From contig JAUIJD010000020.1 of the NCBI GenBank assembly GCA_030431475.1, positions 1 through 64,000 of the forward strand: a stretch of 64,000 nucleotides of DNA, written 5' to 3'. This stretch comes from Verrucomicrobiia bacterium (GTDB lineage: Bacteria; Verrucomicrobiota; Verrucomicrobiia; Verrucomicrobiales; Akkermansiaceae). Under the pieces are notes generated by a model, which was not told the origin of the DNA, made no database searches, and saw only the letters and a program-made list of their open reading frames with translations. A program made the translations under genes and the position numbers. Below, one piece after another: positions 1 through 22,309 of the stretch (position 1 is the first letter of the stretch; each line of letters opens with the position of its first letter).

Positions 1-1063
1 GCGCCATAGCGTCGTATAGACATTGATCCGTAAGCAACTCCGCCACCCCTTTCGCGATCGCCTTGTGGCACGTGCCCACAAGGCGGGCCGTCCCGGCCTC
101 CACAGCCTCTGGCCTCTCCGTGGTATCCCTCATCACAAGGACGGGTTTACCGAGACTCGGAGCTTCTTCCTGCACTCCACCGGAATCGGTAAGAATCAGG
201 TGAGCCCGATTCATAAGAGCGACAAATTGCACGTAATCGAGCGGCTCAATCAGGTGAATGTTGCTTGCAGATCGGTCTCCTCCGAGTATCCGGTAAACCG
301 GCCCCCTGACATTTGGATTTAGATGCACTGGATAGACGAACGCTACATCTTCGAATTTCTCAGAGAGATCTCGGACGGCACGGCAGATTGAGTCGAACCC
401 CTCACCAAAATTCTCCCGCCGATGACCTGTGATGAGCACTAGCTTTCTTCCATTGACACCCGGTTGAAGATCATTGGGGAGATCCTCAATTCTGGGTGGT
501 TCATCTTTGATCTTTTGTCGCACCCGGAGCAGGGCATCGATTACGGTATTTCCCGTTACGATCATCTTTTCCGAAGCAACGCCCTCACGCTCAAGGTTTC
601 GACGGCTCCACACGGTAGGCGGAAAATGGAGACTCGCGATTGCGGAGATTAGTCTGCGATTGGCCTCCTCCGGCCACGGTGACAAGAGATTGTCCGTTCG
701 AAGGCCGGCCTCGATGTGGCCAACCGGAATACGCTGGTAGATGCCGGCAAGCGCCCCGCAGAATGCGGTGCTCGTATCTCCTTGCACCAATATGAAATCA
801 GGCGTGTTCGATTCAAAATATTTGTCGAGAGCCGTAGTTGCTCTGGCGGTCAAGCCCGCCAGATTCTGGCCAGGCTGCATCAGATCGAGATCGTAGTCCG
901 GCCGAATGCCAAAAACCCGGAGCACCTGATCAAGCATGCTCCGGTGCTGTCCCGTCACACATACTTCTGGTTCAAGCGTTTCTGAGTCTTGAAGCGCCAA
1001 GACAACTGGTGCCATCTTGATGGCTTCCGGGCGGGTACCAAAAATGCATGCGATTTTTTTCAT
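1..1063 (-). CDS. wecB: UDP-N-acetylglucosamine 2-epimerase (C-terminus beyond window)
   Basis: Cytoplasmic enzyme interconverting UDP-GlcNAc and UDP-ManNAc for surface polysaccharide synthesis. Translating the minus strand from the ATG at 1063 gives 354 codons without a stop up to the window edge; family members are about 370-380 residues, so only a short tail is missing. Family signatures are visible: GTRPEAIK at residues 9-16, GDTSTAF, HIEAGLRT, TGHRRENFGEG and LTDSGGVQEEAP near the end. The gene starts 67 nt after the polymerase-like gene on the same strand and looks like the distal part of the EPS locus. Confidence 0.95.
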   Translation of the reverse strand, partial: MKKIACIFGTRPEAIKMAPVVLALQDSETLEPEVCVTGQHRSMLDQVLRVFGIRPDYDLDLMQPGQNLAGLTARATTALDKYFESNTPDFILVQGDTSTAFCGALAGIYQRIPVGHIEAGLRTDNLLSPWPEEANRRLISAIASLHFPPTVWSRRNLEREGVASEKMIVTGNTVIDALLRVRQKIKDEPPRIEDLPNDLQPGVNGRKLVLITGHRRENFGEGFDSICRAVRDLSEKFEDVAFVYPVHLNPNVRGPVYRILGGDRSASNIHLIEPLDYVQFVALMNRAHLILTDSGGVQEEAPSLGKPVLVMRDTTERPEAVEAGTARLVGTCHKAIAKGVAELLTDQCLYDAMA

Positions 1064-5683: not shown

Positions 5684-6085
5684 TCAGTTCGTCAGTTCGT
5701 CGATGAATTGTTCGAAGTCGGTGAGGTGGCGCTGGAGGATCGCCTCCAGGATGGGACGTTGAAGTTCCTGGTAAGAATGAACGGCGACGCTGCGGAAGCC
5801 GACCATGTTGCGCATCGCGGAGGCGGTGGAGCCCGACAGGCTGCCGGCCTGCTCCAGCAGGCTGAATGCGTCGCGGCTCGACTGGGGCACACCCAGCTTC
5901 CCCTCCGCCACGTGGTGCATGGCCAGATCGATGGCCGCCTCACAGGCACGAAGAAGATTCAGGACGATGGCATCCTGGATGGTGAAGTCGTCCAGGCGTT
6001 CGGGCTTGCCTTTGAATTCCTCGGACACCCGGGCCAGACCGCGGCGGATGATCGCGGACTTGTTGCGGCTGATGTCGTCGGTCAT
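5684..6085 (-). CDS. hepT: HepT-family toxin (HEPN RNase)
   Basis: A 133-residue all-helical HEPN protein of the HepT (DUF86) family, an RNase held inactive by its nucleotidyltransferase partner. The diagnostic RX4HXY motif is present as RSVAVHSY in the second half, after FTIQDAIVLNLLRACEAAIDLA. Its ATG overlaps the mntA stop (6082-6085), so the order is mntA-hepT. In characterised pairs MntA adds AMP to the tyrosine of this motif. The last codons lie in the CAGTTCGT tandem repeat that opens the next spacer. Confidence 0.9.
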   Translation of the reverse strand: MTDDISRNKSAIIRRGLARVSEEFKGKPERLDDFTIQDAIVLNLLRACEAAIDLAMHHVAEGKLGVPQSSRDAFSLLEQAGSLSGSTASAMRNMVGFRSVAVHSYQELQRPILEAILQRHLTDFEQFIDELTN

Positions 6086-6462
6086 CGGGCCAGAATCTCC
6101 GCCCGCTCTTCATTGAGGCGGGCGTAGTCGGACAGGGTCTGCATCTCAAATCGCCGCGCCACCTCGAGATCGGAAGCCTCGAGCCGCTCACCGGTGCGGA
6201 TCACCTCCTTGCGCATCACGGTCGTCGCGGAGGACAAGTCCACCACTTCCACCTGAAGATCCAGTTGCTCTGACAGCTGATTGGAGAGATCGAAAAGTCG
6301 GACGGGATCGAGAGCAGTGGGACAGAGAATCGCCAGATCGAGATCGGAACCGTCACGTTGACGGTCGGTTCCAAACGAGCCGAAGCAATAGACCACTTGC
6401 GGCTCCAGGGGCGCAAGACCAGCCAGCACCGCTTCCTCCATCGATTTGGCAAGACGAGACAT
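6082..6462 (-). CDS. mntA: MntA-family nucleotidyltransferase antitoxin
   Basis: A 126-residue minimal nucleotidyltransferase. The motif GSFGTDRQRDGSDLD fits the MNT signature GSX10DXD exactly, with a third acidic residue expected in LQVEVVDL. Members modify and silence the cognate HepT RNase by AMPylation. The gene directly precedes and overlaps hepT by four bases. The long repeat copy B starts 5 nt upstream of the ATG, so any promoter must lie inside the repeat. Confidence 0.9.
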   Translation of the reverse strand: MSRLAKSMEEAVLAGLAPLEPQVVYCFGSFGTDRQRDGSDLDLAILCPTALDPVRLFDLSNQLSEQLDLQVEVVDLSSATTVMRKEVIRTGERLEASDLEVARRFEMQTLSDYARLNEERAEILAR

Positions 6463-9126: not shown

Positions 9127-10371
9127 CTAAACGATCATCCCCGCGGCGACGGTTTCGTTGGTGCCGGGGTCGATGAGGATGAAGGAGCCGGTCTGGCGGT
9201 TGCGGCGGTAGCTGTCGTGGATGACGGGGCTCGCGGTGCGCAGGGTGATGCGGCCGATGTCGTTCATCGCGAAGCCGTCGATGCCCTCGATCTTGTGCAG
9301 GGTGTTGATGTCGACGTGATACTTCACCTCGCGCACGACCGCCTGCATCTCGCGGGTGGTCTGGCGGAGCACCAGCTTGGCGCGGTGCTGCATCGGCTTG
9401 TTCGAGAACCAGCAGATCATCGCCTCGAGATCCTGGGCGACCTCCGGCGGGTTGTTCTTCTTCACGATCATGTCACCGCGCGAGATGTCGATCTCGTCCT
9501 GCAGCGTGAGCGTGATGCTCTGCGGCGCGAAGGCCTCCTCGACCGGGCCCTCGGCGGTGTGGACCTCCTTGATCTTCGACTGGAAGCCGGAGGGCATGAC
9601 CATGACCTCGTCGCCCGGCTTGAAGACGCCGCCGGCCACGCGTCCGGCGTAACCGCGGAAGTCGTGCCATTCGTCGCTCTGCGGACGGATCACCCACTGG
9701 ACCGGGAAGCGGGCGTCGACGTGGTTTTCCTCGCCGCCGACATAGACGTTCTCGAGGTGGTAGAGCAGCGACGGCCCCTGATACCATTCCATGTTGGCCG
9801 AGGGCTCGACGACGTTGTCGCCGTTGAGGGCGGAAATCGGGATGGGAGTGATTTCGACGATGTTGTCGAGGCGCGAGGCGAAGTCCTGGTAGTCCTTGAC
9901 GATCTGGTCGTAGGTCTCCTGCGAGTAGTCGACGAGGTCCATCTTGTTGATGCAGACGACGACGTGCTGGATGCGCAGCAGGTTGGCGATGAAGCTGTGG
10001 CGCTTGGTCTGCTCGATGACGCCCTTGCGGGCGTCGACCAGGATGATGGCGAGGTTGGCGGTCGAGGCGCCGGTCACCATGTTGCGGGTGTACTGGATGT
10101 GCCCCGGGGTGTCGGCGATGATGAACTTCCGCTTCGGGGTGGCGAAGTAGCGGTAGGCGACGTCGATCGTGATGCCCTGCTCGCGCTCGGCCTTGAGGCC
10201 GTCGGTCAGCAGCGCGAGGTTGACGTGCTCGTCGCCGCGGCGCTTCGAGCTGGCCTCGACGGCCTCGAGCTGGTCCTCGAAGATCGACTTGCAGTCGTAG
10301 AGAAGGCGGCCGATGAGGGTGGATTTGCCGTCGTCGACACTTCCTGCCGTTGTGAATCTGAGTAGGTCCAT
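9127..10371 (-). CDS. cysN: Sulfate adenylyltransferase, GTPase subunit
   Basis: The GTP-hydrolysing subunit of ATP sulfurylase, which with CysD makes adenosine 5'-phosphosulfate. The 414-residue sequence has an EF-Tu-like GTPase domain: GSVDDGKST at residues 10-18, the switch region EREQGITIDVAYR, DTPGH, and NKMD. Beta-barrel domains follow (DFRGYAGRVAGGVFKPGDEV; FILIDPGTNETVAAGMI at the end). No CysC domain is fused at the C-terminus; cysC is separate at 12386. It is separated from cysD by a degraded four-helix-bundle gene, whereas these two genes are usually adjacent. Confidence 0.97.
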   Translation of the reverse strand: MDLLRFTTAGSVDDGKSTLIGRLLYDCKSIFEDQLEAVEASSKRRGDEHVNLALLTDGLKAEREQGITIDVAYRYFATPKRKFIIADTPGHIQYTRNMVTGASTANLAIILVDARKGVIEQTKRHSFIANLLRIQHVVVCINKMDLVDYSQETYDQIVKDYQDFASRLDNIVEITPIPISALNGDNVVEPSANMEWYQGPSLLYHLENVYVGGEENHVDARFPVQWVIRPQSDEWHDFRGYAGRVAGGVFKPGDEVMVMPSGFQSKIKEVHTAEGPVEEAFAPQSITLTLQDEIDISRGDMIVKKNNPPEVAQDLEAMICWFSNKPMQHRAKLVLRQTTREMQAVVREVKYHVDINTLHKIEGIDGFAMNDIGRITLRTASPVIHDSYRRNRQTGSFILIDPGTNETVAAGMIV

Positions 10372-10404
10372 GAAAAGTTCGGTGGCTGGCTGGGGAAAAG
10401 GACT

Positions 10405-10445
10405 GTGTTTCGGTGTTTCGGAAGCCGGTGTTTCGGTCTTTGGTG
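10405..10445. repeat. GTTTCGGT micro-repeat, left flank of the four-helix-bundle gene
   Basis: Tandem units TGTTTCGGTGTTTCGG, then CCGGTGTTTCGG, immediately 3' (minus-strand sense) of the broken gene. Inverted units CCGAAACACCGAA and ACCGAAACAC occur at 10856-10887 on the other side. Confidence 0.8.
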
Positions 10446-10452
10446 CGAACCG

Positions 10453-10828
10453 TCAGAAACAGAAGGCTTTGTGATTATTCATTATGCTTCCGAGTTGGCG
10501 GCCGATCTTCTCTGCGCGTTCGACGAATCGATTGGCGGCTTCGGAGCCCAGGTAGCCGCAGGCACAGGCGGAGTCGATCCAGTGCAGGCTTTCCTGCAAC
10601 TCTCCGTCCGCGTCAGTAAGCTTGGAAAGGAAGTGTGCGGGATAAGCGACGCTTTGCCCAGGCTTCGGCGACACAGGCTCCCACCGAGCGTGACGATCGT
10701 CGGATCTGGTCGGTGAGGGAGTAGGCCTCGTCGCGGGGCCAGGCTTTCGTGGCCAGGAAGATATCCTGCTGCAGCGAAAAGCATCCCTGATACACCTCCA
10801 ACTCCCGCCACGAACTGACCATTCCCAT
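10453..10828 (-). pseudogene. Four-helix-bundle (S23/IVP-like) protein, frameshifted
   Basis: The first part reads WRELEVYQGCFSLQQDIF ... LTDQIRRSSRSVGACVAEAW, the classic start of the 23S-rRNA-intervening-sequence/four-helix-bundle family. The reading then leaves frame after KRR. Shifting by one base at about 10645 restores YPAHFLSKLTDADGEL ... GYLGSEAANRFVERAEKIG to the stop at 10453. A single extra A in the plus-strand run ATAAGCG explains it. The gene sits between cysD and cysN and is flanked by inverted GTTTCGGT micro-repeats. A sequencing error is possible. Confidence 0.85.
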
Positions 10829-10852
10829 CGTTCAACAGGCTTGGGCTTTCTC

Positions 10853-10890
10853 AACCGAAACACCGAACTCCTAAAAACCGAAACACAGAG
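10853..10890. repeat. GTTTCGGT micro-repeat, right flank (inverted)
   Basis: Units ACCGAAACACCGAA and ACCGAAACACAG lie between the broken four-helix-bundle gene and the 3' end of cysD. They are the inverse of the units at 10405-10445. Confidence 0.75.
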
Positions 10891-10898
10891 CGTAGCGA

Positions 10899-11804
10899 TC
10901 AAAAGTAACCTTCTTTCTTCCGATCTTCCATCGAGGTTTCGGAGCGCTTGTCGTCGGCGCGGTTGCCGCGCTCGGTCTGGCGGGCGGCGGCGACTTCCTC
11001 GATGATCTTCTCCATGGTGTCGGCATCGGACTCGACGGCGCCGGTGATGGTCGCGTCGCCCATGGTGCGGAATCGGATCCTGCGGTTGACGACCTCCTCG
11101 CCCTCGCGCGGCTGGACGAACTCGCTGACCGCGAGGATGGTGCCGTTGCGGACGATGGTGTCGCGCTCGTGGGCGTAGTAGAGGCTGGGGAGGACGATGC
11201 CCTCGCGCTTCATGTACATCCAGATGTCCATTTCGGTGAAGTTGGACAGCGGAAAGACGCGGAAGTGCTCACCTGGGTGCATCCGGCCGTTGAAGAGATT
11301 CCACAACTCGGGGCGCTGGTTCTTCGGGTCCCATTGCCCGAAGTCGTCGCGGTGAGAGAAGAAGCGCTCCTTGGCGCGGGCCTTCTCCTCGTCGCGTCGG
11401 CCGCCGCCGAGGACGGCGTCGAACTGCTGCTCTTCGATGGTGTCGAGCAGGGTGGTCGTCTGAAGCCGGTTGCGCGAGGCGTCGGGGCCCTTCTCCTCGG
11501 CCACGCGGCCCTTGTCGATGGAGTCCTGGACCGAGCCGACGACCAGGCGGGCGCCGATCTTTTCCGCGAACTCATCGCGGTACTGGATGGTCTCCGGGAA
11601 ATTGTGGCCCGTGTCGACGTGGACCAGCGGGAAAGGAAGGCGCGCCGGGTGGAACGCCTTGCGGGCGAGCCAGGCCATCACGATCGAGTCCTTGCCCGCC
11701 GAGAACAACAGCCCGGGGTTCTGGAACTGGGCCGCGGTTTCGCGGAGGATGAAAATCGCCTCGGCTTCGAGCTGGTCGAGGTGGGAGAGCTTGTAGTTGG
11801 GCAT
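10899..11804 (-). CDS. cysD: Sulfate adenylyltransferase, catalytic subunit
   Basis: A 301-residue PP-loop enzyme of the PAPS-reductase-like superfamily that adenylylates sulfate. Visible features are LFSAGKDSIVMAWLA (PP-loop), HVDTGHNFPETIQYRDEF, AVLGGGRRDEEKARAKER, FPLSNFTEMDIWMYM and the C-terminal RFRTMGDATITGAVES characteristic of CysD. It is the second sulfate-activation gene in the order cysC, cysD, cysN. TTTCAGC micro-repeats occupy the 45 nt directly upstream of its ATG. Confidence 0.97.
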   Translation of the reverse strand: MPNYKLSHLDQLEAEAIFILRETAAQFQNPGLLFSAGKDSIVMAWLARKAFHPARLPFPLVHVDTGHNFPETIQYRDEFAEKIGARLVVGSVQDSIDKGRVAEEKGPDASRNRLQTTTLLDTIEEQQFDAVLGGGRRDEEKARAKERFFSHRDDFGQWDPKNQRPELWNLFNGRMHPGEHFRVFPLSNFTEMDIWMYMKREGIVLPSLYYAHERDTIVRNGTILAVSEFVQPREGEEVVNRRIRFRTMGDATITGAVESDADTMEKIIEEVAAARQTERGNRADDKRSETSMEDRKKEGYF

Positions 11805-12115
11805 CTTCGGAAAGGCTGAAACGCTGAAAATCTAAAATGCTGAAATGGAGAGGCGGCTGCGCCGCGGTCGGAAGGTCCAGCCGTCGCTCGATGAGCTATG
11901 GCTGGCAAGCGGAGGTCCAGTCGGCGCTTTACGAGCTATGGCTGGGAAGCGGAGTGGTTTGGCTTGAGGCTTTGAAGCGGCTTTGCCGCCCGGCGCGGGT
12001 CGCTGCTTCTTGGCGGGCTTGTCCGCCGTAGCCCGAAGGGCGGAGGCGGAAGAAGAGGGGCGATCCGCCGGGCAGGCAAGAATTAATTGGTAAGTTGCCT
12101 TTTTTAGTAAGGATT
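11805..12115. repeat. cysD leader: micro-repeats and GC-rich spacer
   Basis: Contains GGCTGAAACGCTGAAAATC and TGCTGAAATG units (11816-11848), then two direct copies of a GAGCTATGGCTGG..AAGCGGAG segment near 11890 and 11930. An AT-richer stretch near 12078-12112 (AATTAATTGG ... TTTTTTAGTAAGG) is the only place resembling a promoter or terminator. No gene is seen. Confidence 0.6.
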
Positions 12116-12210
12116 GGAGTGGCTTCTTTCGAGGAGCCATGAGCGGGGTGGACGGCTTTCAGCCGTCTCGGGACTTATCGGGCGACCGAAAGGTCGCCGG
12201 GCCAGCTCAT
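12116..12210. repeat. BIME-like element, GGAGTGGC type, 3' arm lost
   Basis: Opens GGAGTGGCTTCTTTCGAGG and has inner hairpins GACGGC-TTTCA-GCCGTC and GGCGACC-GAAA-GGTCGCC. It reaches CCAGCTCAT, but the closing GCCACTCC arm is absent. It is followed by a complete copy 50 nt on. Confidence 0.75.
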
Positions 12211-12262
12211 CCGCCTTCGCCAGCTACGGCGTGAAAAGTAGCGCTTGGGATGGCGTCACTCT

Positions 12263-12381
12263 GGAGTGGCTCCTTTCGAGGAGCTATGCGCTGGGATGGT
12301 GGCTTTCAGCCGCCGCGGGACTTATCGGGGCGACCGGGAGGTCGCTGGCCCGGCTCATGGCGCTTCGAAAAGCGCCACTCC
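12263..12381. repeat. BIME-like inverted hairpin pair, GGAGTGGC type
   Basis: Complete 119-nt copy: opens GGAGTGGCTCCTTTCGAGG, inner stems GGTGGC-TTTCA-GCCGCC and GCGACC-GGGA-GGTCGC, closes GCGCTTCGAAAAGCGCC then ACTCC. It ends 4 nt before the cysC stop codon. Confidence 0.85.
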
Positions 12382-12385
12382 GCTC

Positions 12386-12970
12386 CTACACCGTGAGGCG
12401 CTTGGTGCGGAGGTATTCGAGGATCTCGAAGGTGGCGTCCTGGACGCTGAGGGTTTCGGTGTCGATGACGAGATTCGGCTCCTGCGGTTCCTCGAAGGCG
12501 CTGTCGAGGCCGGTGAAGTTCTTGATCTCGCCGGCGGCCGCCTTGGCGTAGAGACCCTTCGGATCGCGCGCCTCGCAGGTGGCGTAGTCGGCCTTGACGT
12601 AGATCTCGTGGAAGTCATCGCCGAGGATGCCGCGCGCGAGGTCACGAAAGGCGCCTCGCGGCGTGATCAGCGAGCACAGCACGATGACGCCGTTGGACGC
12701 CAGCACCTTGCCGAGCTCGGCCGTGCGGCGGATGTTCTCAAGGCGGTCATCGTCGCTGAAGCCGAGGTTGCTGTTGAGGCCGGTGCGCAGGTTGTCGCCA
12801 TCGAGCCGGACCACAAAACGCCCCTTGTCGTGTAGGACATGCTCCAGGGCATTGGCAATGGTCGACTTGCCCGAACCGGAAAGGCCGCAGAACCAAAGCA
12901 CCCCACCCTTCTGCCCGAGGAGGGTTTCCTTGTGGTGTCGAGGCAGGGTTTCGCTGGGATGGATGTGCAT
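12386..12970 (-). CDS. cysC: Adenylylsulfate kinase
   Basis: A 194-residue kinase phosphorylating adenylylsulfate to PAPS, the donor for sulfotransferases. It has GLSGSGKSTIANALE (P-loop, about residues 30-44), RLDGDNLRTGLN, LGFSDDDRLENIRR, SLITPRGAFRD and DPKGLYAKAAAGEIKNFTG, all canonical. Its presence beside cysD/cysN inside a polysaccharide locus, with no sulfite-reduction genes in view, argues for polymer sulfation rather than cysteine synthesis; this is inference. Confidence 0.97.
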   Translation of the reverse strand: MHIHPSETLPRHHKETLLGQKGGVLWFCGLSGSGKSTIANALEHVLHDKGRFVVRLDGDNLRTGLNSNLGFSDDDRLENIRRTAELGKVLASNGVIVLCSLITPRGAFRDLARGILGDDFHEIYVKADYATCEARDPKGLYAKAAAGEIKNFTGLDSAFEEPQEPNLVIDTETLSVQDATFEILEYLRTKRLTV

Positions 12971-12981
12971 GGGAAAAGTTT

Positions 12982-13077
12982 AAACGTCGGAAGGTCGAAA
13001 GTCGAAAGTCTGTATTGCCAATCGCACCCGTGGTTTCGGGCCCTTCAGACGTTCGGACCTGCGACTTTCGACGGGCC
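12982..13077. repeat. GTCGAAA micro-repeat inverted pair
   Basis: Fills the gap between the cysC ATG and the stop codon of the glycosyltransferase. Tandem GTCGAAAGTCGAAAGTC (12994-13010) faces CGACTTTCGAC (13062-13072), so GTCGAAAGTCG and CGACTTTCGAC can pair. CGTCGGAAGGTC and CAGACGTTCGGACC extend the symmetry. Confidence 0.75.
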
Positions 13078-13079
13078 GT

Positions 13080-13841
13080 CTACCGGCCCTTGGCGTGGTC
13101 GAGGAGGGAGTAGAAGAGGAAGAGGGAGTTGTGGACGACGTAGCGCTTGAAGAGCCGACGAGGTTCGGCGGCGAGGCGATAAGCCCACTCGAGGCCACGC
13201 TTCTGGAGAAAGGCGGGCGCTTGGGACACTTCACCGGCGTGAAAGGCAAAGGCGGCACCGATGCCGAAGTAAACGCCGGGGGGCAGCCGGTGCTTGTGCC
13301 GGGCGATCCAGTGTTCCTGCTTGGGGCAGCCGAGGCCGACCCAGATCAAGTTGGCGCCGGACTCGCGGATCTTCCGGCAGATGCGGTCGAACTCGTCTTC
13401 CGGCCACTCGCCGAAGGGCGGCGAGTAGCGATCGGCGATCTCGGCACCGGGAAACTCCTCGCGGAAACGCGTGGTGAGCTTGTCGAGGGTGTCGGGTTTG
13501 CCACCGAGCAGGAAGTGCCGGAAACCGGAACGTCCGTCGGTGGCGCGGATGGTTTCGAGCATCAGGGTCGGACCATAAACGCGATCGCTGAGGCGCTCCT
13601 CTTCGGGCAGCGCGAGGTTGATCGACCAGACGAGCGGCATGCCGTCGGGCACGATCAGGTCGAAGGCGGCCATGCTCCGGCCGAACTCGTCATCGTGGCG
13701 GGCCAGTGCGGCGACGTGGGTGTTGGCGGCCTCGACCGCGTGGGCGCGATCCGCGGCCACGGCCCGCTCGAGGATCCACTCGACCGCCCCGGCGTAATCG
13801 GTCCGGGCCAGCGGCAGGCCGATGACGGTGTGGGTGTGCAT
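13080..13841 (-). CDS. WecG/TagA/CpsF-family glycosyltransferase
   Basis: A 253-residue GT26-family enzyme that adds the second sugar (often ManNAcA or ManNAc) to an undecaprenyl-linked acceptor. Visible are VEAANTHVAALARHD, FDLIVPDGMPLVW, RVYGPTLMLE, FLLGGKPDTLDKL, WVGLGCPKQEHWI and the C-terminal GLEWAYRLAAEPRRLFKRY. The ATG at 13841 was chosen because the longer frame upstream is a BIME-like element. Together with wecB and the UDP-sugar dehydrogenase it suggests an N-acetylmannosaminuronate-like residue in the repeat unit. Confidence 0.93.
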   Translation of the reverse strand: MHTHTVIGLPLARTDYAGAVEWILERAVAADRAHAVEAANTHVAALARHDDEFGRSMAAFDLIVPDGMPLVWSINLALPEEERLSDRVYGPTLMLETIRATDGRSGFRHFLLGGKPDTLDKLTTRFREEFPGAEIADRYSPPFGEWPEDEFDRICRKIRESGANLIWVGLGCPKQEHWIARHKHRLPPGVYFGIGAAFAFHAGEVSQAPAFLQKRGLEWAYRLAAEPRRLFKRYVVHNSLFLFYSLLDHAKGR

Positions 13842-13842
13842 G

Positions 13843-13974
13843 GGAGTGGCTTCTTTCGAGGAGCCATGAGCCGGGGTGGTGGCTTTCAGCCGCCGCGAGC
13901 CCACGGTCAAACCCCGTGAAGGCGCGACCGGGAGGTCGCAGGCCCAGCTCATGGCGCCTGGAAGGCGCCACTCC
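13843..13974. repeat. BIME-like inverted hairpin pair filling an intercistronic gap
   Basis: 132-nt GGAGTGGC-type element: opens GGAGTGGCTTCTTTCGAGG, inner stems GGTGGC-TTTCA-GCCGCC and GCGACC-GGGA-GGTCGC, closes GGCGCCTGGAAGGCGCC then ACTCC. It begins 2 nt from one gene's ATG, and its last base is the first base (plus strand) of the next gene's stop codon, so it is the entire spacer. Confidence 0.9.
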
Positions 13975-15053
13975 TACCGACAGAACGGCTCGACGGGGCG
14001 AAGGGTGTCCGTGCCCGCGAGCGCGGCGGAGCGAATGACTTCGTCCGGAAAGAGATAAAGCGCGTAGCCGCCGTAGCCGCCGCCGCAGTACTTGCGGGCG
14101 AGCGCGCCGTCGATTTCGGGAAGCGGCTCCATGCCCTCGTCGAGTTGAGTCCGGTGGTAGATCGAAATCCCCTCGGCGAGCCCTTCGAGATCGGACCCGA
14201 TCACGGCCTCGCGGGCGACGGCGCCCGACCGGGCGATGCCGTCGTAGTCGCGCGGGAGGTCGACCACACCGGGGGTGTCGTGCTGCGAGCCGGTCCACAG
14301 GATGGCCATCCGACCGCGCAGGAAGTCGCCGCTCTGCTTGAAGTCGAGGACCGGCTTCTCGCCCGAGCGCCAGACGCAGAGTCCGCCCTCGCGGATGACC
14401 GCGGGATCCTGCCAGCCGACCCCGAGGTCGATCTCGGACTCGACGCCGCAGCGTCCGTTGAGCAGGGCCCAGGCCCCGCTGCCGCCGAGGCCCGACTGCT
14501 TCTCATAGGGCCACTCGCGCAGGGAAACCATCGGCGAAATCGCGCAGTTCACCACGTAGGCACCCTCGCGGGAAAAGCGGGGGACATCGAGCCAGCCGCC
14601 GGCGAAGTCGACCCGCAGCGGCGCCTCGGTCGGCGCCTGGACCCAGCGGACGATGGACGAGGTCGAGACCGGCGCAAAGCGCGGCGGCGTCTTCGGCAGA
14701 ACCACGTAGCGGGCGCCCACCTGCTCACAGAGGTCCCGCTTCAGGGCTTCGTAGTGATCGTCCTCCGTGACGGCCAACACGTCCGGCCGGATGCGGAGGA
14801 AGTGCTCCTTGAAGTCGAGTCCCTCCTCGTGGCTGTCCCCGACCACCACCGAATCGACCACCCGCATGCCCTCGAGCAGGGCCTTCTTGTGCTCGTCGGG
14901 AATCGACGGCTTGCGGCGCTTGTGGATCCACAGCACCTCCGCCGAGGCGAAGGACACCGTCAGGTGGTCCCCCAGCGCCCGCGCCTCCTCGAAGAACTGC
15001 AGGTGCCCCCCGTGGAGGATGTCGTAGCAACCGCTGACGAAGACTTTTTTCAT
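13974..15053 (-). CDS. Cytidylyltransferase-GHMP sugar kinase fusion
   Basis: A 359-residue bifunctional protein. Residues ~1-140 form a TagD/RfaE2-type nucleotidyltransferase (VFVSGCYDILHGGHLQFF with the HxGH motif; later PVSTSSIVRW). Residues ~145-359 form a GHMP kinase-like domain (LRVDFAGGWLDVPRF, GLGGSGAWALLNG as the ATP-binding motif, GGYGGYALYLF as motif 3), resembling heptose-7-phosphate kinase or fucokinase. It probably activates a sugar to a nucleotide sugar in one chain. HldE performs an analogous two-step activation but with a PfkB-type kinase in the opposite order. The start MKKVFVSG at 15053 is preferred over an upstream ATG. It sits next to gmd and fcl. Confidence 0.85.
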   Translation of the reverse strand: MKKVFVSGCYDILHGGHLQFFEEARALGDHLTVSFASAEVLWIHKRRKPSIPDEHKKALLEGMRVVDSVVVGDSHEEGLDFKEHFLRIRPDVLAVTEDDHYEALKRDLCEQVGARYVVLPKTPPRFAPVSTSSIVRWVQAPTEAPLRVDFAGGWLDVPRFSREGAYVVNCAISPMVSLREWPYEKQSGLGGSGAWALLNGRCGVESEIDLGVGWQDPAVIREGGLCVWRSGEKPVLDFKQSGDFLRGRMAILWTGSQHDTPGVVDLPRDYDGIARSGAVAREAVIGSDLEGLAEGISIYHRTQLDEGMEPLPEIDGALARKYCGGGYGGYALYLFPDEVIRSAALAGTDTLRPVEPFCR

Positions 15054-15058
15054 GGAAT

Positions 15059-15229
15059 GGAGCACCGATTATGAAATCGGCACGCCTGTTGGAGATGACC
15101 GCCTACTCTCTGATGGAAAGCTTGGTAGTCTAAGATGAGGCGCTTTCTATGGTCGAACTTGTGGGCTTTCTATCGGCGAGTACGAATGCCGGAGGGGCGA
15201 GGCGGTGCCGATTTCATAATCGGCGCTCC
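15059..15229. repeat. Inverted hairpin pair, CCGATTATGAAATCGG type
   Basis: The left arm GGAGCACCGATTATGAAATC and the right arm GATTTCATAATCGGCGCTCC are inverse copies, each able to fold as CCGATT-ATGA-AATCGG. About 120 nt lie between them. The element fills the gap between the fusion gene's ATG and the gmd stop. A single copy of the same hairpin lies before gluconokinase at 35968. Confidence 0.85.
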
Positions 15230-15238
15230 TTTCAGCTT

Positions 15239-16354
15239 TTACTCCTTCGCGACCGCGACCTTGTGGCCATGGGCCTTGAGCAGGGCGTGGCGGCGGGCGA
15301 CCTCGAGGTCGGAGGCGACCATCTCGGCGCACATTTCCTCGACGGTGATCTCCGGAACCCAACCGAGCTTCTCTTTCGCGTTGGTCGGGTCGCCGAGCAA
15401 CGTCTCGACTTCGGCCGGGCGGAAGTAGCGGGGATCGACCCGGACGATCACGTCGCCCTCCTTGACCGCCGGCGCCTTCTCGGCATCGACCGTGGTGGCA
15501 GTGGCGATCTCATCAACACCTTCGCCCGAAAACTCGAGGCCGATGCCGGCCTCGGCCGCCGACATGCGGACGAACTCGCGCACCGAGATCTGCTTGCCGG
15601 TGGCGATGACGAAGTCTTCCGCCTCGTCCTGCTGGAGCATCATCCACTGCATCCGCACGTAGTCCTTGGCATGACCCCAGTCACGGAGGGCGTCCATGTT
15701 GCCGAGGTAGAGGCAGGGTTCGAGCCCCTGCGAGATATTGGCCATCGCGCGGGTGATCTTGCGGGTGACGAAGGTCTCACCGCGGCGCGGCGACTCGTGG
15801 TTGAATAGGATGCCGTTGCAGGCATAGATGCCGTAGGACTCGCGGTAGTTCACCGTGATCCAGTAGGCATACATCTTGGCCACCGCGTAGGGCGAGCGGG
15901 GATAGAAGGGCGTCGTCTCCTTCTGCGGAATCTCCTGCACCTTGCCGAAGAGCTCGGAGGTCGAGGCCTGATAGAAGCGGGTCTTCTTCTCGAGACCGAG
16001 GAAACGAATGGCCTCAAGCAGGCGCAACGCGCCCATCGCATCGACGTCGGCCGTGTACTCGGGCGACTCGAAGGACACCGCGACGTGCGACTGCGCGCCG
16101 AGGTTGTAGACCTCGTCCGGCTGGACCTCGCTGAGGATGCGGGTGAGGTTCGAGCTGTCGGTCAGGTCGCCATAGTGGAGCTTGAAGCGGGCGTGCTCGA
16201 CGTGCGGGTCCTCGTAGATGTGGTCGACCCGTTCGGTGTTGAACAACGAAGCACGACGCTTGATGCCGTGAACCTCGTAGCCTTTCTCAAGGAGAAACTC
16301 CGCGAGATAGGATCCGTCCTGGCCGGTGATGCCGGTGATGAGCGCTTTTTTCAT
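15239..16354 (-). CDS. gmd: GDP-mannose 4,6-dehydratase
   Basis: A 371-residue extended short-chain dehydrogenase converting GDP-D-mannose to GDP-4-keto-6-deoxymannose. It has the nucleotide-binding [34 protein letters not shown], the catalytic threonine and [14 protein letters not shown] segment, and [10 protein letters not shown] with the YxxxK pair; [20 protein letters not shown] is diagnostic of Gmd. With fcl next to it the product is GDP-L-fucose. Length matches the family. Confidence 0.97.
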
Positions 16355-16389
16355 AATGCTGGAAGAGGGATGGAGTGAACTTCCGGAGA

Positions 16390-16532
16390 GGAGTGACTCC
16401 TTTCAAGGAGCCATGAGAGAGGGAGAACGGCTATCCAGCCGTTCTTCGCACGGGTTGGCCAACGCAGCCGGTCACCGCCGAGCGACCGGAGCTCGCCTTC
16501 CCCTTCCCATGGCGCTTGCAAAGCGCCACTCC
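16390..16532. repeat. BIME-like inverted hairpin pair, GGAGTGGC type
   Basis: Opens GGAGTGACTCCTTTCAAGG, with inner hairpin GAACGGCT-ATCC-AGCCGTTC, and closes GGCGCTTGCAAAGCGCC then ACTCC. It lies between the gmd ATG and the fcl stop codon. Stem sequences differ from other copies but pairing is kept. Confidence 0.85.
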
Positions 16533-16539
16533 GCGCCGC

Positions 16540-17478
16540 TCACAGCCTCGCGGCGCCGGATTCGAGGGAGGCGAGGAAGTCGCGGTAGGCTCCGGCGAGG
16601 CCGGTTTCCAGGGCGATCGCAGGCGCCCAGCCGGTGGCCTTGATGCGGGAGACGTCCATCAGCTTGCGCGGGGTGCCGTCGGGCTTGCTCGGGTCGGTCT
16701 CGATCCGGCCCTTGTAGCCGACGGTCTTCGCAACGAGTTGGGCGAGTTCGAGGATGGTCACGTCCTCTCCCACCCCGACGTTCACCCAGTCGGGCGGATC
16801 CTCAAGGCCGAGCAAGTGGAAGCAGGCGGCGGCGAGGTCATCGACGTGCAGGAACTCGCGCCGCGGCGATCCGGTCCCCCAGATCGCGACGCTTTCCGCA
16901 CCCGATTCCTTTGCCTCATGGAAGCGGCGGATGAGCGCCGGAATGACGTGCGAGTTCTCGGGATGGTAATTGTCGCCGGGGCCGTAGAGGTTGGTCGGCA
17001 TCGCCGAGTGATACATCAGCCCGTGCTGCGCCCGGTAGTGCTGGCACATCTTGAGACCCGCGATCTTGGCGATGGCGTAGGCTTCGTTGGTGACTTCGAG
17101 CGGACTGGTCAGCAGGCAGTCTTCGGGCATCGGCTGCGGCGCCAGTTTCGGATAGATGCACGACGAACCGAGAAAGAGAACGCGCCCAACGTCCGCCTGA
17201 CGACATCCCTCGACGCAGTTGGCGGCGATCGCGAGGTTCTCGTAGATGAAGTCGGCCGGGTAGGTCGAGTTGGCGTGGATGCCGCCAACCTTGGCCGCGG
17301 CGATGATCACGATGTCCGGCTTCTCCTCCGAGAGGAAGGCGAAGGTGTCGGACTGGTCGCAGAGGTCAACCCGGTCGCGTCCGGCGGTGAGGACCTCGAA
17401 GCCCCCCTGCTTTTCCGCCTCGCGCACCAGCGCCGAGCCCACCATTCCCCGGTGTCCGGCAATGAAGAGTTTTTTCAT
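16540..17478 (-). CDS. fcl: GDP-L-fucose synthase
   Basis: A 312-residue epimerase/reductase finishing GDP-L-fucose from the Gmd product. It has [16 protein letters not shown] (Rossmann loop), [35 protein letters not shown] and [20 protein letters not shown] with the YxxxK pair; [20 protein letters not shown] is diagnostic. It lies directly upstream of gmd in the operon order. Confidence 0.97.
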
Positions 17479-17486
17479 AGGAATTG

Positions 17487-17553
17487 GGAGAGCGAGTTTT
17501 TGACTCGCTTGGGCTTGCTTGATCGGATGCAGCGACTTGAAAAGTCGCTCTCC
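17487..17553. repeat. Short inverted hairpin pair, GGAGAGCGA type
   Basis: The left arm GGAGAGCGAGTTTTTGACTC folds as GCGAGT-TTTTG-ACTCGC and the right arm GCGACTTGAAAAGTCGC folds on itself; the outer GGAGAGC/GCTCTCC sequences pair. It fills the fcl-to-dehydrogenase gap. The right arm matches the hairpin inside long repeat copies A-C. Confidence 0.85.
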
Positions 17554-17556
17554 ATA

Positions 17557-18864
17557 CTACGCCTTGACCACCTGCCCGTCGGAGGTGGTGACGGTGGCCA
17601 TGGCGTTGCGGGTGTCGACGATCAGGTCGGACCAGGCCGCGAGTTGATCGAGATCAAAGGCCTTGTGATGGGTCGCGATCACGACGCAATCGAAGCCGCG
17701 AATGGTCGCCTCGTCCCACGCCACCGATTCGCTTCCCGCCCACTCCATGTGCTCGCGGGTCGGACCGACGACGGGCACGTGGGGATCGAAGTAGGCGACC
17801 TCCGCACCGAGGCGCTTGAAACCGTCGAGCAGGTGGAAGGTCGGCGACTCGCGCATGTCGTCGACATCCGGCTTGTAGGCGAGGCCCATCAGCAGGATCC
17901 GGCTCCCCTTCACCGCCTTGGCCCGGGAATTCAGCGCCTCCATCGTACGATGGATGACGTAGTCAGGCATCCCTCGGTTGATCTCGCCGGCGAGTTCGAT
18001 GAAGCGGGTGTGCACGCCGTACTCGCGCGCCTTCCAGGTCAGGTAGAAGGGATCGATGGGAATGCAGTGGCCGCCGAGACCGGGGCCCGGATAGAAGGGC
18101 TTGAAACCGAAGGGCTTGGTCGAGGCCGCGCGGATCACCTCCCAGATGTCGATGCCCATGCGATCGGCGGCGACCTTGAGCTCGTTGACCAAGCCGATGT
18201 TGACCGCACGGTAGATGTTCTCGAGCAGCTTGGTCAGTTCCGCCACCTTGCAGGAACTCACCGGCACCACCTCGTCGAAGACCGCCCCGTAGAGCGCGAC
18301 ACCCGCTTCGAGGCAGGCGGGGGTCACACCGCCGACGACCTTGGGGATGTTGGTGGCCGAGAAGTCGGGATTGCCCGGATCCTCGCGCTCCGGCGAGTAG
18401 ACGACGTGGATGGCTTCACCGACCGTGAACCCGGCATCCTCGATCCGGGTGACCAGTTCCTCGTCGGTCGTCCCGGGGTAGGTCGTGCTCTCGAGGCTGA
18501 TGACCTGGCCGGCGCGCAGCCCGGGCACGATGGCCTCGATGGTGCTCACGACGTAGCTGAGGTCCGGCTCGAAATGCTCGTCGAGCGGGGTCGGCACGCA
18601 GAGGATGAGCGCGTCGCACTCGCCCACCCGCGAGAAGTCGGTCGTCGCGTCGAGGGTCCCCGCCGCCTTGGCCTCCGCGACCTGCCCGGTGGGGATGTGC
18701 TCGATGTAGGAGCGGCCTTCGGCGAGCGCGTCGATCTTCGCGGGATCGATGTCCAACCCAAGCGCCCGGTAGCCGGCCCGGGCGTAGGCCAGCAGCAGCG
18801 GCAGCCCGACGTAGCCGAGGCCGACGACCCCGATGACCGACTTTTTGTCCAGTTCCTTGCTCAT
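17557..18864 (-). CDS. UDP-sugar 6-dehydrogenase (WbpA/WecC-like)
   Basis: A 435-residue NAD-dependent dehydrogenase oxidising the C6 of a UDP-hexose or UDP-HexNAc to a uronate. It has [19 protein letters not shown] (NAD site), [40 protein letters not shown] and the catalytic cysteine in [16 protein letters not shown]; the third domain begins [19 protein letters not shown]. The sequence resembles UDP-GlcNAc 6-dehydrogenases more than UDP-glucose enzymes, but substrate cannot be fixed by eye. It overlaps the mutase gene by 4 nt. Confidence 0.9.
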
Positions 18865-20039
18865 GTTGAAGATTGCGGACCTTTCCCGTAGCGGGCGAGA
18901 AGACGGTCGGCCTCCGCGAGGGCCATGCCAGTCACCTGGTCCATGTTGTAGTAGCGGTAGGTCGCGAGGCGACCGATGAAGCTGACATGTTCCTCGCGAG
19001 TCGCGAGGTCGGCATAGCGGCGGTAGGACTCGGTGGCGTCGGGGGCGGGCACCGGATAGTAGGGCTCGTCGCCGGGCCGCCAGTCCTTCGGAAATTCGCG
19101 GACGATGGTCGTCGCGTCGATCCGCTGCCCGGTGGCGTGCTTGATCTCGACGATGCGCGTGAAGGGGATCTCGGCCTCCGGGTAGTTGACCTGCATCGCC
19201 GGTTGCCAGAACCCCGGCTTGCCTGAGACCGGCTCGCGAGGGATCAGTTGCTCGCGTGTGAAGCTTTCGGGTTCGAATCGCAGCGACCGGTAGGGCAAGG
19301 CGCCGAAGCGGCGTCCGTAAAACTCGTCGATCGGGCCGGTGAAGACGAGGTGGCGATGGTCCCAGCGGCGTTTCGCCTCTTCAAAATCAACCCCGAGGTG
19401 GAGTTTCAGTCCGGGCGCGGCGTCGAGCATCCGCTCGAACATAGCGGTATAGCCCCGGTCGGGAAGCGCCTGGAATGTTTCCCGAAGGTAACGGTTGTCG
19501 CGGTTGGTGCGGATCGGGATGCGCCCGCAGACGCTCGGGTCGAGGTCCCGCGGATGCCGCTTCCACTGCTTGAGCGTGTAGCCTTCGAAGAATTGCTCGT
19601 AGAGTTCGCGGCCGACCTGCGAGAGGATGACTTCCTCGGAGTTCTGTGGGTCGTCGATCGGCACCCGCTCCTTCTCGAGCCATGCCTCGAATTCCTCGGA
19701 GGTCGAGGGCCGCCCGATCCACTCCTCGAAGGTGTTGAGGTTGATCGGAAAGCTCCAGTGGCGACCGGCGGCGTGGCTTTTGATTTCGTAGTCGACCGGA
19801 TGCCAGCCGGTGAAGCGCGTCAGGTAGTCGACGATCCGCTGCGAGTTGCTCCGGAAGTAGTGGGGGCCGTAGCGGTGGATCAGGACGCCGGCGGCGTCGG
19901 TCGCATCGTGGGCGTTGCCGCCGAGGTGCGCACGGCGGTCGACGACCACGCACTTCCATCCGGCGGCGGCGAGCCGTTCCCCGACGACCAGCCCGGCGAA
20001 GCCGGCGCCGACGATCAGGAAATCGGTGCGGCCCTCCAC
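18861..20039 (-). CDS. glf: UDP-galactopyranose mutase
   Basis: A 392-residue flavoenzyme interconverting UDP-galactopyranose and UDP-galactofuranose. It has [18 protein letters not shown] (FAD site), a [20 protein letters not shown] segment, [33 protein letters not shown] and the C-terminal [18 protein letters not shown], all canonical. Its presence implies galactofuranose in the polymer. The stop overlaps the next gene (ATGA), and the start is 4 nt from the decarboxylase stop, so it is tightly coupled. Confidence 0.96.
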
Positions 20040-20043
20040 GGGA

Positions 20044-21015
20044 TCAGGCGGGCGCGAGCACGCCCTTGAAGTAGTCGATGGTTTCCCGGATCCCCTCCTC
20101 GAAACCGACCTGCGGCTCCCAGCCGAGGATCTCCTTGGCGCGGGTGATGTCGGGCTTGCGGATCTTCGGATCGTCGGGCGGCAGCGGCCGGTCCTCGATG
20201 GTCAGCTCGACCTCGCAGATGCGGGCGATGGCCTCGGCGAATTCGCGGATGCTCATCTCGTGCGGATTGCCGCAATTGACCGGCTCGTGGAAACTGCTGC
20301 GGGCCAGCCGCCAGATGCCATCGACCAGGTCGCTGACGTAGCAGAACGACCGCGTCTGCCGGCCGTCGCCGAAGACGGTCATGGGCTCGCCGCGCAAGGC
20401 CTGGCCGATGAAGGCGGGCACGACGCGCCCGTCGTCGAGGCGCATCCGCGGACCGTAGGTGTTGAAGATGCGGACGATCTTGGTGTCGAGACCGTAGGCC
20501 CGGTGGTAGGCCATTGCGGCCGCCTCGGCGTAGCGTTTCGCCTCGTCGTAGCAGGAGCGCACGCCGATCGAATTCACGTTGCCCCAGTAGGTTTCCGGCT
20601 GCGGGTGCACCTCGGGGTCGCCATAGACCTCGGAGGTCGAGGCCACCAGATAGGTCGCCCCTTTCTCCCGAGCCAGGTCGAGCGCGTGGTGGGAGGCATC
20701 GGAGCCGGCCTTCAGCGTCTCGACCGGGATCTCGACGTAGTCGATCGGACTCGCGGGCGAGGCCATGTGCAGGACGAAGGCGACCTCGCCGTCGATCGCG
20801 TAGGGCTTCGAAACGTCATGCTCGAGGAAGCGGAAGTCCGGGTGTCCATCGAGGTGTGCGAGATTGTCCGGAGTACCGGTGACGAAGTTGTCGAGCGCCA
20901 CCACCTTGAGGCCGTCGGCCAGCAGCCGGTCGATGAGGTGGGAGGCCACGAAGCCCGCCCCGCCGGTGACCACCGCGGTTTGGCCCTTGAAGTCGGAAGG
21001 ATTCTTGATCATCAC
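20044..21015 (-). CDS. uxs: UDP-glucuronate decarboxylase (UDP-xylose synthase)
   Basis: A 323-residue NAD-dependent short-chain dehydrogenase making UDP-xylose from UDP-glucuronate. It has [58 protein letters not shown] and [19 protein letters not shown] with the YxxxK pair, typical of Uxs. It is the first sugar gene of the operon, preceded by a 180-nt leader that contains a palindrome also found before the regulator gene. Confidence 0.92.
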
Positions 21016-21152
21016 GCCGTCAGATTTCGGGCACGCTGCCGCCCCTGGTCGAATGTCCGATTTCGGACAAAACCACGGGCGCTGCGTTCGGGAAATGGAT
21101 GGAGCCGGGCCAAAGCTTCGGCGTCGCGGCCATGCATGGCGGAATCCGGCGA

Positions 21153-21174
21153 TTGTTCAATCCAAAATGAACAA
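21153..21174. promoter_or_regulatory. Candidate operator, TTGTTCA-N8-TGAACAA
   Basis: A perfect 7-bp inverted repeat, TTGTTCA and TGAACAA, around ATCCAAAA, in the leader between the NusG-like gene and uxs. The same half-sites and almost the same spacer (ATCAAAAA) recur at 22288-22309 in front of the GbsR-like gene. A dimeric repressor site is the likeliest reading. Confidence 0.7.
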
Positions 21175-21198
21175 TTCGGGAAATTCTCCGAATTCGCC

Positions 21199-21750
21199 TC
21201 AGGGAAGCGGCTTTCGCGGCAACAGCAGGCTGAACAGGTCGACCTCGACCAGGTGCGGCTGACCGAGGAACTCGAGCAGCACCTTGACCCGCTCGCGTCC
21301 GGGCAGCACCGAGACCACCTCGCCGCGGAATCCGCCCAGCGGACCGCTGGCAATTTCGACCTCCTCGCCCTTCTCGATGCGGGGGGCGACGGTGAGGGTC
21401 TCGACCTCGTCGGACTCGTCCCGGCCCTTCGCCACCTCGGCCCGCAGGACCGAGACGAACTCGTCCGCCACCGGCGGCACGATCTCGCCGAAGCGCACCA
21501 GCCCGCGCACCCCCTGCGAGTAGATCACCAGGCGCTCGCTTTCGCTGAGGACGAAGCGCGCCAGAATGTAACCGGGGAACAGCGCCTCGACCCACCAGAC
21601 CTTGCCGCGACGCGTCGCCTTGCGGTAGCGCAGGCGAGGACAGAAGACCTCGACGCCGTCGAGCTCGCGCAGGTGCTGGGCGGCGACGTGCTCGCGCTTC
21701 GGCTGCGTCTTGACGCAGTACCAGCATGGCTCGTCGGAGCCCGAACTCAT
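21199..21750 (-). CDS. NusG/RfaH-like transcription antiterminator
   Basis: A 183-residue specialised NusG paralogue that would ride on RNA polymerase and prevent early termination in the long EPS operon. The NGN domain shows [28 protein letters not shown] and [13 protein letters not shown]; the C-terminal KOW segment is [20 protein letters not shown]. The start at 21750 ([12 protein letters not shown]) overlaps the regulator's stop codon as ATGA. The position matches RfaH- and UpxY-like factors, which sit at the head of capsule loci. Confidence 0.92.
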
Positions 21751-22259
21751 TGACCGAGAACTTTTTGCATCAGCGGCAGCATCATCCGTGCCCGCTTCAT
21801 CCACCCCTCGAGCTTGGCCACCCGCTCGTCGTAGAACTCCCGTGCCTCGCGGTCGTCCTCGGCAGCGACCGCCTCGAACAGCCGCCCAACCTTGAGCTGG
21901 CCGCTGTCGAGATGAGGACGCACCTGCTCACGAATGAACCCACCGGCCAGACGCTTCAGGTCGACCGCCGCCTCGTAGTGAACGCGGCGCACGCCGGGCA
22001 TCTCCGCCTCCTTGACCGCCCCCAGTCCGCGCAGCGTCCGCAGCCCCTGACTGGCCGAGCCCTTGCTGATCCCGAGGCGCCTCACCAGATCGTCGAGCGA
22101 CAGCGGTTCGCGACTGATGAACAGCAGCCCGTAGATCTCGCCCACCGAGCCCGGCATCCCGAGCACGCGGACGCCATCGACGAAGAAATCGACCACCTGC
22201 CGCTCCAGATCGGTCAGTTCGGCCACCGGCGCGGCATCGCTTTCCTCAAGCTCGGGCAT
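21747..22259 (-). CDS. GbsR/MarR-family transcriptional regulator
   Basis: A 170-residue DNA-binding protein. A winged helix is visible (EIYGLLFISREPLSLDDLV, RRLGISKGSASQGLRTLRGLG, then a wing with GVRRVHYEA), followed by a helical dimerisation region, as in GbsR-type repressors. The start at 22259 (MPELEESDAAP) is preferred because the longer start would run into the upstream palindrome. Being translationally coupled to the NusG-like gene, it is likely the switch of the EPS locus and probably autoregulated. Confidence 0.9.
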   Translation of the reverse strand: MPELEESDAAPVAELTDLERQVVDFFVDGVRVLGMPGSVGEIYGLLFISREPLSLDDLVRRLGISKGSASQGLRTLRGLGAVKEAEMPGVRRVHYEAAVDLKRLAGGFIREQVRPHLDSGQLKVGRLFEAVAAEDDREAREFYDERVAKLEGWMKRARMMLPLMQKVLGQ

Positions 22260-22287
22260 GCACAGCCGGATAGGGAGGTTTGTGAGA

Positions 22288-22309
22288 TAGTTCAATCAAA
22301 AATGAACAT
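22288..22309. promoter_or_regulatory. Candidate operator, GTTCA-N8-TGAAC
   Basis: Inverted half-sites GTTCA and TGAAC (22290-22307) around ATCAAAAA, 29-50 nt upstream of the GbsR-like start codon. It is nearly identical to the palindrome at 21153-21174. Confidence 0.7.

Follow-up and report, generated by a model that had tools for sequence, protein, structure and literature searches.

Recruitment by an ops-type element has been described for the proteobacterial NusG paralog RfaH, whose residues K10, H20, T72 and R73 contact the element (PMC2871177), and the recruitment of NusG paralogs that are encoded inside their own target operons has been described as unknown (PMC7593976). As regards GbsR-type regulators, OpcR occludes its promoter (PMC7396694, PMC6207618), and CydE, a repressor, has a footprinted site in its own promoter (PMC6096048). 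Each of these kinds of element is known; what is new at the locus described here is that a GbsR-type regulator, a specialised NusG and an ops-like leader are joined into one module, and searches of the open-access literature on GbsR and exopolysaccharide (EPS), and on RfaH/ops or antiterminators in Verrucomicrobia, turned up no description of this system.

The locus lies within a stretch of 64,000 nucleotides from a Verrucomicrobiia bacterium (the window), and all its features are found on the minus strand:

22290..22307, minus strand: candidate operator 1, GTTCATTTTTGATTGAAC, overlapping the -35 element of the gbsR-nusG promoter (window scan and conservation)
22267..22295, minus strand: putative promoter TTGAAC-17-TATCCG, in which TTGAAC is the right half of operator 1
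21747..22259, minus strand: GbsR-type regulator with a MarR fold, 170 aa from ATG (Pfam, PDB and fold matches)
21199..21750, minus strand: specialised NusG paralog (NGN and KOW), whose start overlaps the regulator stop as ATGA
21173..21194, minus strand: terminator-like hairpin between nusG and operator 2 (weak: 3 found, 1.1 expected)
21155..21172, minus strand: candidate operator 2, GTTCATTTTGGATTGAAC, 5' of the EPS operon (window scan and conservation in relatives)
21047..21074, minus strand: RNA hairpin GGTT-T-TGTCCG-AAAT-CGGACA-TT-CGACC in the EPS leader (covariation and fold)
21032..21044, minus strand: ops/JUMPstart-like element GGGCGGCAGCGTG, one mismatch to E. coli ops GGCGGTAGCGTG
20044..21015, minus strand: first EPS gene, a NAD-dependent epimerase/decarboxylase ('uxs'; profile match)
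9127..20039, minus strand: rest of the conserved EPS operon (profile matches; order conserved in relatives)

We propose, with a probability of about 70%, that this locus is controlled in two layers, by a GbsR-type repressor at both operators and by loading of the NusG paralog at the ops element. A dimer of the GbsR-type (MarR-fold) protein would bind the 18-bp operator GTTCA-N8-TGAAC; at operator 1 the bound regulator would occlude RNA polymerase at the -35 element TTGAAC, resulting in negative autoregulation of gbsR-nusG, and at operator 2 it would also control initiation of the EPS operon. The NusG paralog supplied by the first operon would load onto the polymerase at the hairpin and ops-like element, ~120 nt into the EPS leader, and act as an antiterminator that lets the polymerase complete the long sulfated-polysaccharide operon. 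An inducer would release the regulator, so that promoter firing and the supply of the elongation factor would rise together, in a coherent feed-forward arrangement; a sulfate-related inducer, suggested by the presence of cysC, cysD and cysN in the operon and by analogy with the sulfate response of CydE, may serve as a lead. The sharp on/off switch of EPS production put forward by the first-pass annotation is a possible outcome of such wiring, not evidence for it.

Of the 195 family genomes, 137 carry an ortholog of the regulator (better than 1e-20), and the 80 named loci all come from Akkermansiaceae or related Verrucomicrobiia (Haloferula, Luteolibacter, Roseibacillus and metagenome bins); the family members are related, so that all counts across relatives given here are non-independent. 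The regulator carries a MarR-type winged helix-turn-helix (Pfam MarR_2, 7.7e-7, 29.6 bits against a cut-off of 27), and its score against the choline regulator CudC (NCBIfam NF047500) is 43.3 bits, below the curated 218 bits. It is closest to Mj223, the template of the GbsR family, which is both its top PDB sequence match (1ku9, 1e-12) and the top Foldseek match of its model (1ku9, E 1.3e-7, with a different orientation of domains, rmsd 18); the model is predicted to share the architecture of Mj223, with an N-terminal DNA head, a linker and C-terminal helices. The SKG..SQG recognition region is invariant. At three loci (L279, L280 and L281) GbsR-like paralogs with an altered recognition region (SKASAS) each have a separate ops element behind them, and at L279 a gene for an ABC transporter follows as well.

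The first gene of the EPS operon encodes an Epimerase/GDP_Man_Dehyd-type protein by profile search, which is consistent with the earlier assignment as uxs of the gene behind the EPS palindrome. The remainder of the operon comprises glf, ugd, an epimerase, a gmd-like gene, a nucleotidyltransferase, a WecG/TagA glycosyltransferase, an APS kinase, cysD and cysN. Since the last three are present, the product predicted from the gene content is probably a sulfated polysaccharide; cysN, cysD and the APS kinase (9127-12970) are conserved within the operon in relatives. The EPS region also contains a HepT-type toxin gene (NCBIfam 2.5e-40) with a neighbouring small gene, at 5684-6462.

In the putative promoter of the regulator gene, TTGAAC occupies 22295-22290 and TATCCG 22272-22267, with the ATG at 22259. 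A strict consensus promoter scan gave no match here, and the geometry is preserved among relatives: counted from the first base of the palindrome, the start codon lies at +46..49 in nearly all named loci. With TTGAAC as the -35 element and a spacer of 17 nt, the transcript would start at the start codon, and hence the gbsR-nusG mRNA would be leaderless; the regulator would repress its own promoter by covering the -35 element. A search for the same -35/-10 geometry failed for the EPS promoters, which have no canonical -10 element at the expected place: the TA dinucleotide of the -10 element is found at +34..37 from the site in at most 2 of 55 of them, compared to about 71 of 77 gbsR promoters. 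Because of this, repression at the EPS promoter is not certain. The strongest competing explanation, which we nevertheless regard as unlikely, holds that the GbsR-type protein is a regulator of dual sign, which represses its own strong promoter and activates the EPS promoter with its poor -10 element. The difference in TA frequency agrees with it, as do the fixed orientation of operator 2 (with a TTTT tract on the upstream side) and the strand bias of its spacer, which that of operator 1 lacks; however, the characterised GbsR-type proteins GbsR, OpcR, OpuAR and CydE are repressors (PMC7396694, PMC6207618, PMC6096048), and many relatives lack a separate operator at the EPS genes. There the ops element follows nusG directly, so that the gbsR promoter alone can serve the EPS operon.

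The second gene of the module matches Pfam NusG (2.3e-13), with KOW near the cut-off, and has the attributes of a specialised NusG paralog (NusG-SP), namely the NGN and KOW domains, a position second to the housekeeping NusG and linkage to a long operon; another NusG-like match in the organism's own genome is located on contig C91 (E 8e-4). A NusG-sized ORF lies 3' of the regulator in 80/80 relatives, and its start overlaps in 64 of these. The two genes had been described as translationally fused by ATGA: the ATGA is indeed present, as an overlap of 21747-22259 with 21199-21750 that points to translational coupling, and it is the fusion that has to be dropped. The best NCBIfam model is RfaH, but below the cut-off (73 and 46.8 bits for TIGR01955 and PRK09014, against 144.5 and 124), and the scores for UpxY (NF033644, 57.3 bits) and LoaP (NF033641, 47.5 bits) are also below the curated 100 and 125, respectively. 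In the profile alignment to the ops-contact residues of RfaH, H20 is aligned to H, and K10 and R73 are unmatched. The AF2 model predicts the KOW domain as β-strands, NusG-like rather than RfaH-like, a prediction compatible with a fold switch all the same.

The antiterminator layer is best supported by the ops-like element, a feature absent from the first-pass annotation. The E. coli RfaH ops, GGCGGTAGCGTG, agrees in its 3' part with the Rfam JUMPstart consensus; GGCGGCAGCGTG at 21032-21043 differs from it by one mismatch and recurs in relatives. Hairpin and ops together (21032-21074) form a signal ~120 bp past the EPS operator, in which CGACCA and the hairpin precede GGGCGGCAGCGTG. An ops-like element was found in 59 of 77 named loci, and a strict 17-nt ops pattern in 87/195 genomes of the family and 36/387 across the phylum, in both cases with few control matches, whereas genus g3 (about 50 genomes that lack a close ortholog of the regulator) has no match. 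In several other families it adjoins GbsR-like genes, whether or not nusG is present too. Most of 55 units have 121-128 nt between operator 2 and CGACC (mode 122-124), and this spacing is nearly constant also in units that no longer lie beside nusG; since the distance from nusG to the site varies, operator and ops travel as a unit. Among 101 distinct elements, the 7 bases before ops pair with the upstream arm at 5.98/7 positions on average, compared to 5.00 +/- 0.08 when the upstream arms are exchanged among elements (1000 shuffles, maximum 5.28), a figure that is not an exact probability because related sequences are non-independent. The paired bases vary on either side of the stem (CG, GC, TA, AT, TG), and GGTT, which can pair with the constant GACC, lies left of the stem in 57/73; the apical stem covaries, and the GGTT/GACC base is constant. 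A second ops-like element with a hairpin in the own genome (C75:41542; L278 3043) has neither a palindrome upstream nor recognisable sugar genes directly downstream, and may be a relic. Viral contigs scanned with a 22-mer gave many loose matches, which were discarded, and a permissive Rfam search of the window gave only a chance match.

It is improbable, in our judgement, that the ops-like element is another leader signal (pause, translation or processing) and that the NusG paralog loads without any sequence signal. Such a reading would account for K10 and R73 not being evidently kept, for the NusG-like KOW domain in the AF2 model, and for the Rfam results: JUMPstart RNA (RF01707) has no match in the window at the gathering score of 35, and the element of a relative, with a perfect GGGCGGTAGCGTG 3' end, aligns to JUMPstart at 13.6 bits, below that score. 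It has to be set against the 13-nt near-identity to ops, the occurrence of the element beside nusG genes and where polysaccharide operons begin, and its absence where the system is missing.

The first layer rests on the palindromes GTTCA-ATCCAAAA-TGAAC (21155-21172, with arms reaching out to TTGTTCA/TGAACAA) and GTTCA-ATCAAAAA-TGAAC (22290-22307). Both are perfect, and they are as alike as had been claimed, being 1135 bp apart with spacers that differ at 1 of 8 positions. The 64-kb window has no other perfect GTTCA-N8-TGAAC site, against an expectation of 0.03 (mean of 100 dinucleotide shuffles), and at least two perfect sites occur in 0/100 shuffles; with one mismatch permitted, 24/100 shuffles reach two matches and the pattern alone is not significant, so that it is the conservation across genomes that carries the case. 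The first-pass annotation had tied the regulator to its own gene and to the sugar operon, and had named conservation of the palindrome in relatives that keep the gene pair as the check; the main point is supported. A palindrome lies 5' of the regulator gene in 77/79 named loci with enough upstream sequence, and a second, perfect one lies 3' of nusG, before the EPS operon, in 33/77, i.e. it was not found in more than half of them; the reversed-pattern control gave 0 in both cases. In all or nearly all of the first 29 further loci with upstream sequence the palindrome before the regulator is perfect (at L024 with one mismatch only). The spacer of operator 1 varies among relatives (ATTTTGGA, AAAAAAACT and others), with the arms and AT-rich flanks conserved, and therefore the conservation is not simple sequence relatedness. 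At one locus (L171, genome G027) the ops element is preceded by a pair of full operators separated by 20 bp, roughly two turns of the helix.

The excess of the palindrome also goes with the presence of the regulator. The 137 genomes with an ortholog contain 582 palindromes, compared to 254 matches of the reversed pattern (4.25 vs 1.85 per genome; p 2e-16), whereas the 58 family genomes without an ortholog show no excess (85 vs 79, or 1.47 vs 1.36 per genome; p 0.79); within the genus, the palindrome with A/T (W) beside the arms has ~60 sites vs 2 control matches. In other Verrucomicrobiota families, and at second GbsR-like paralogs, TGTTCA-N8-TGAACA or close variants lie 5' of GbsR-like genes. 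From these patterns in the sequences, the two palindromes are very probably binding sites of the GbsR-type regulator. The own genome (4.73 Mb) contains 5 palindrome sites, with none for the reversed control. Two of the three further sites are 73 bp apart, directly 5' of glmM in a glmM-...-glmS cluster (contig C55:60641-60731; L006 8642-8732), and the third (C75:18933), with a GC-rich spacer, was rejected as a chance match. The pair before glmM is retained in two relatives (G093 and G085) and a third (G114) has a single site, so that the own genome and three close relatives have glmM with one or two palindromes. Sites before glmM, distant from the regulator, would also be expected if another transcription factor bound the palindrome and the regulator were merely accompanied by it, which we consider very improbable in view of the palindromes that precede the gene of the regulator itself in several families and in paralogs, and of their excess only in genomes that have it. 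That the palindromes are a chance match, as the shuffles with one mismatch might suggest, is practically refuted by 0/100 shuffles at zero mismatches and by the conserved sites of dozens of genomes, for which the control gave no match.

Further candidate targets can be suggested. Relatives have a third pair of palindrome and ops 13-16 kb further down the locus, before genes for an MBOAT acyltransferase or sulfotransferase-like proteins, and unlinked copies of ops precede initiating sugar transferases. In another family the gene order is GbsR-NusG-ops-glmS, which, together with the palindromes before glmM, suggests from gene order and sites that the system is linked to amino-sugar supply. Loci L254-L257, L293 and L294, from other Verrucomicrobiota families, have GbsR-NusG-ops in the same order, with a glmS-type gene next in L256 and L293.

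The predicted two-layer layout is seen again in other members of the family and, in part, elsewhere in the phylum Verrucomicrobiota. As a tentative extension, less probable than the model itself, it might be a phylum-wide module in which a GbsR-type operator and hairpin-ops are the usual gate at the start of polysaccharide operons, a single regulator governs initiation as well as the supply of a dedicated elongation factor, hairpin and ops are recognized in a manner unlike that of RfaH, and the whole is coupled to amino-sugar (glmM/glmS) or sulfate supply. The hairpin-ops signal sits at a near-fixed distance past a conserved operator, in another phylum than RfaH, which makes recruitment and two-layer control directly testable in cultured Haloferula and Luteolibacter. 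Besides, an operator can now be predicted for the large group of GbsR-type regulators that have no known function, and polysaccharide operons could be found by their leader.

Among the known systems, E. coli RfaH (PMC7593976, PMC7819879, PMC2871177) resembles the one described here in having a NusG paralog, a hairpin directly 5' of the element, several unlinked targets, and a 12-nt ops-type element GGCGGyAGCGTG in the leaders of polysaccharide operons. Here, however, the gene of the NusG paralog is in an operon with a DNA-binding regulator and adjoins its target, most elements have C instead of T at ops position 6, and a variable stem stands on the constant GGTT/GACC base; K10 and R73 are not evident, the NCBIfam RfaH and Rfam JUMPstart cut-offs are not reached, and the AF2 model gives no sign of an α-helical KOW domain. 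Bacteroides UpxY (PMC7593976, PMC7819879) is similar in that the NusG paralog heads the capsule operon it is thought to serve, but in place of an UpxZ-like partner, none of which was seen here, there are a GbsR-type regulator and an ops-like element. LoaP (PMC12691694) shares the link of a specialised NusG to a leader RNA hairpin, which in LoaP is of the UNCG type and here has a variable apical stem followed by an ops-like sequence. On the side of the regulator, B. subtilis GbsR/OpcR and OpuAR (PMC7396694, PMC6207618) are likewise of the GbsR-type MarR family, with an Mj223-like fold and target-linked genes, but they serve osmolyte functions and not polysaccharide, and the operator of B. subtilis GbsR, an AT-rich inverted repeat spaced by 4 bp, works as a roadblock (PMC7396694, PMC6207618). 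CydE of Alishewanella, also of the GbsR type, differs in controlling cytochrome bd and in being induced by sulfate (PMC6096048), and its footprinted site contains TTTCA-GAAATTTC-TGAAA (PMC6096048), the same 5-8-5 architecture as in GTTCA-N8-TGAAC.
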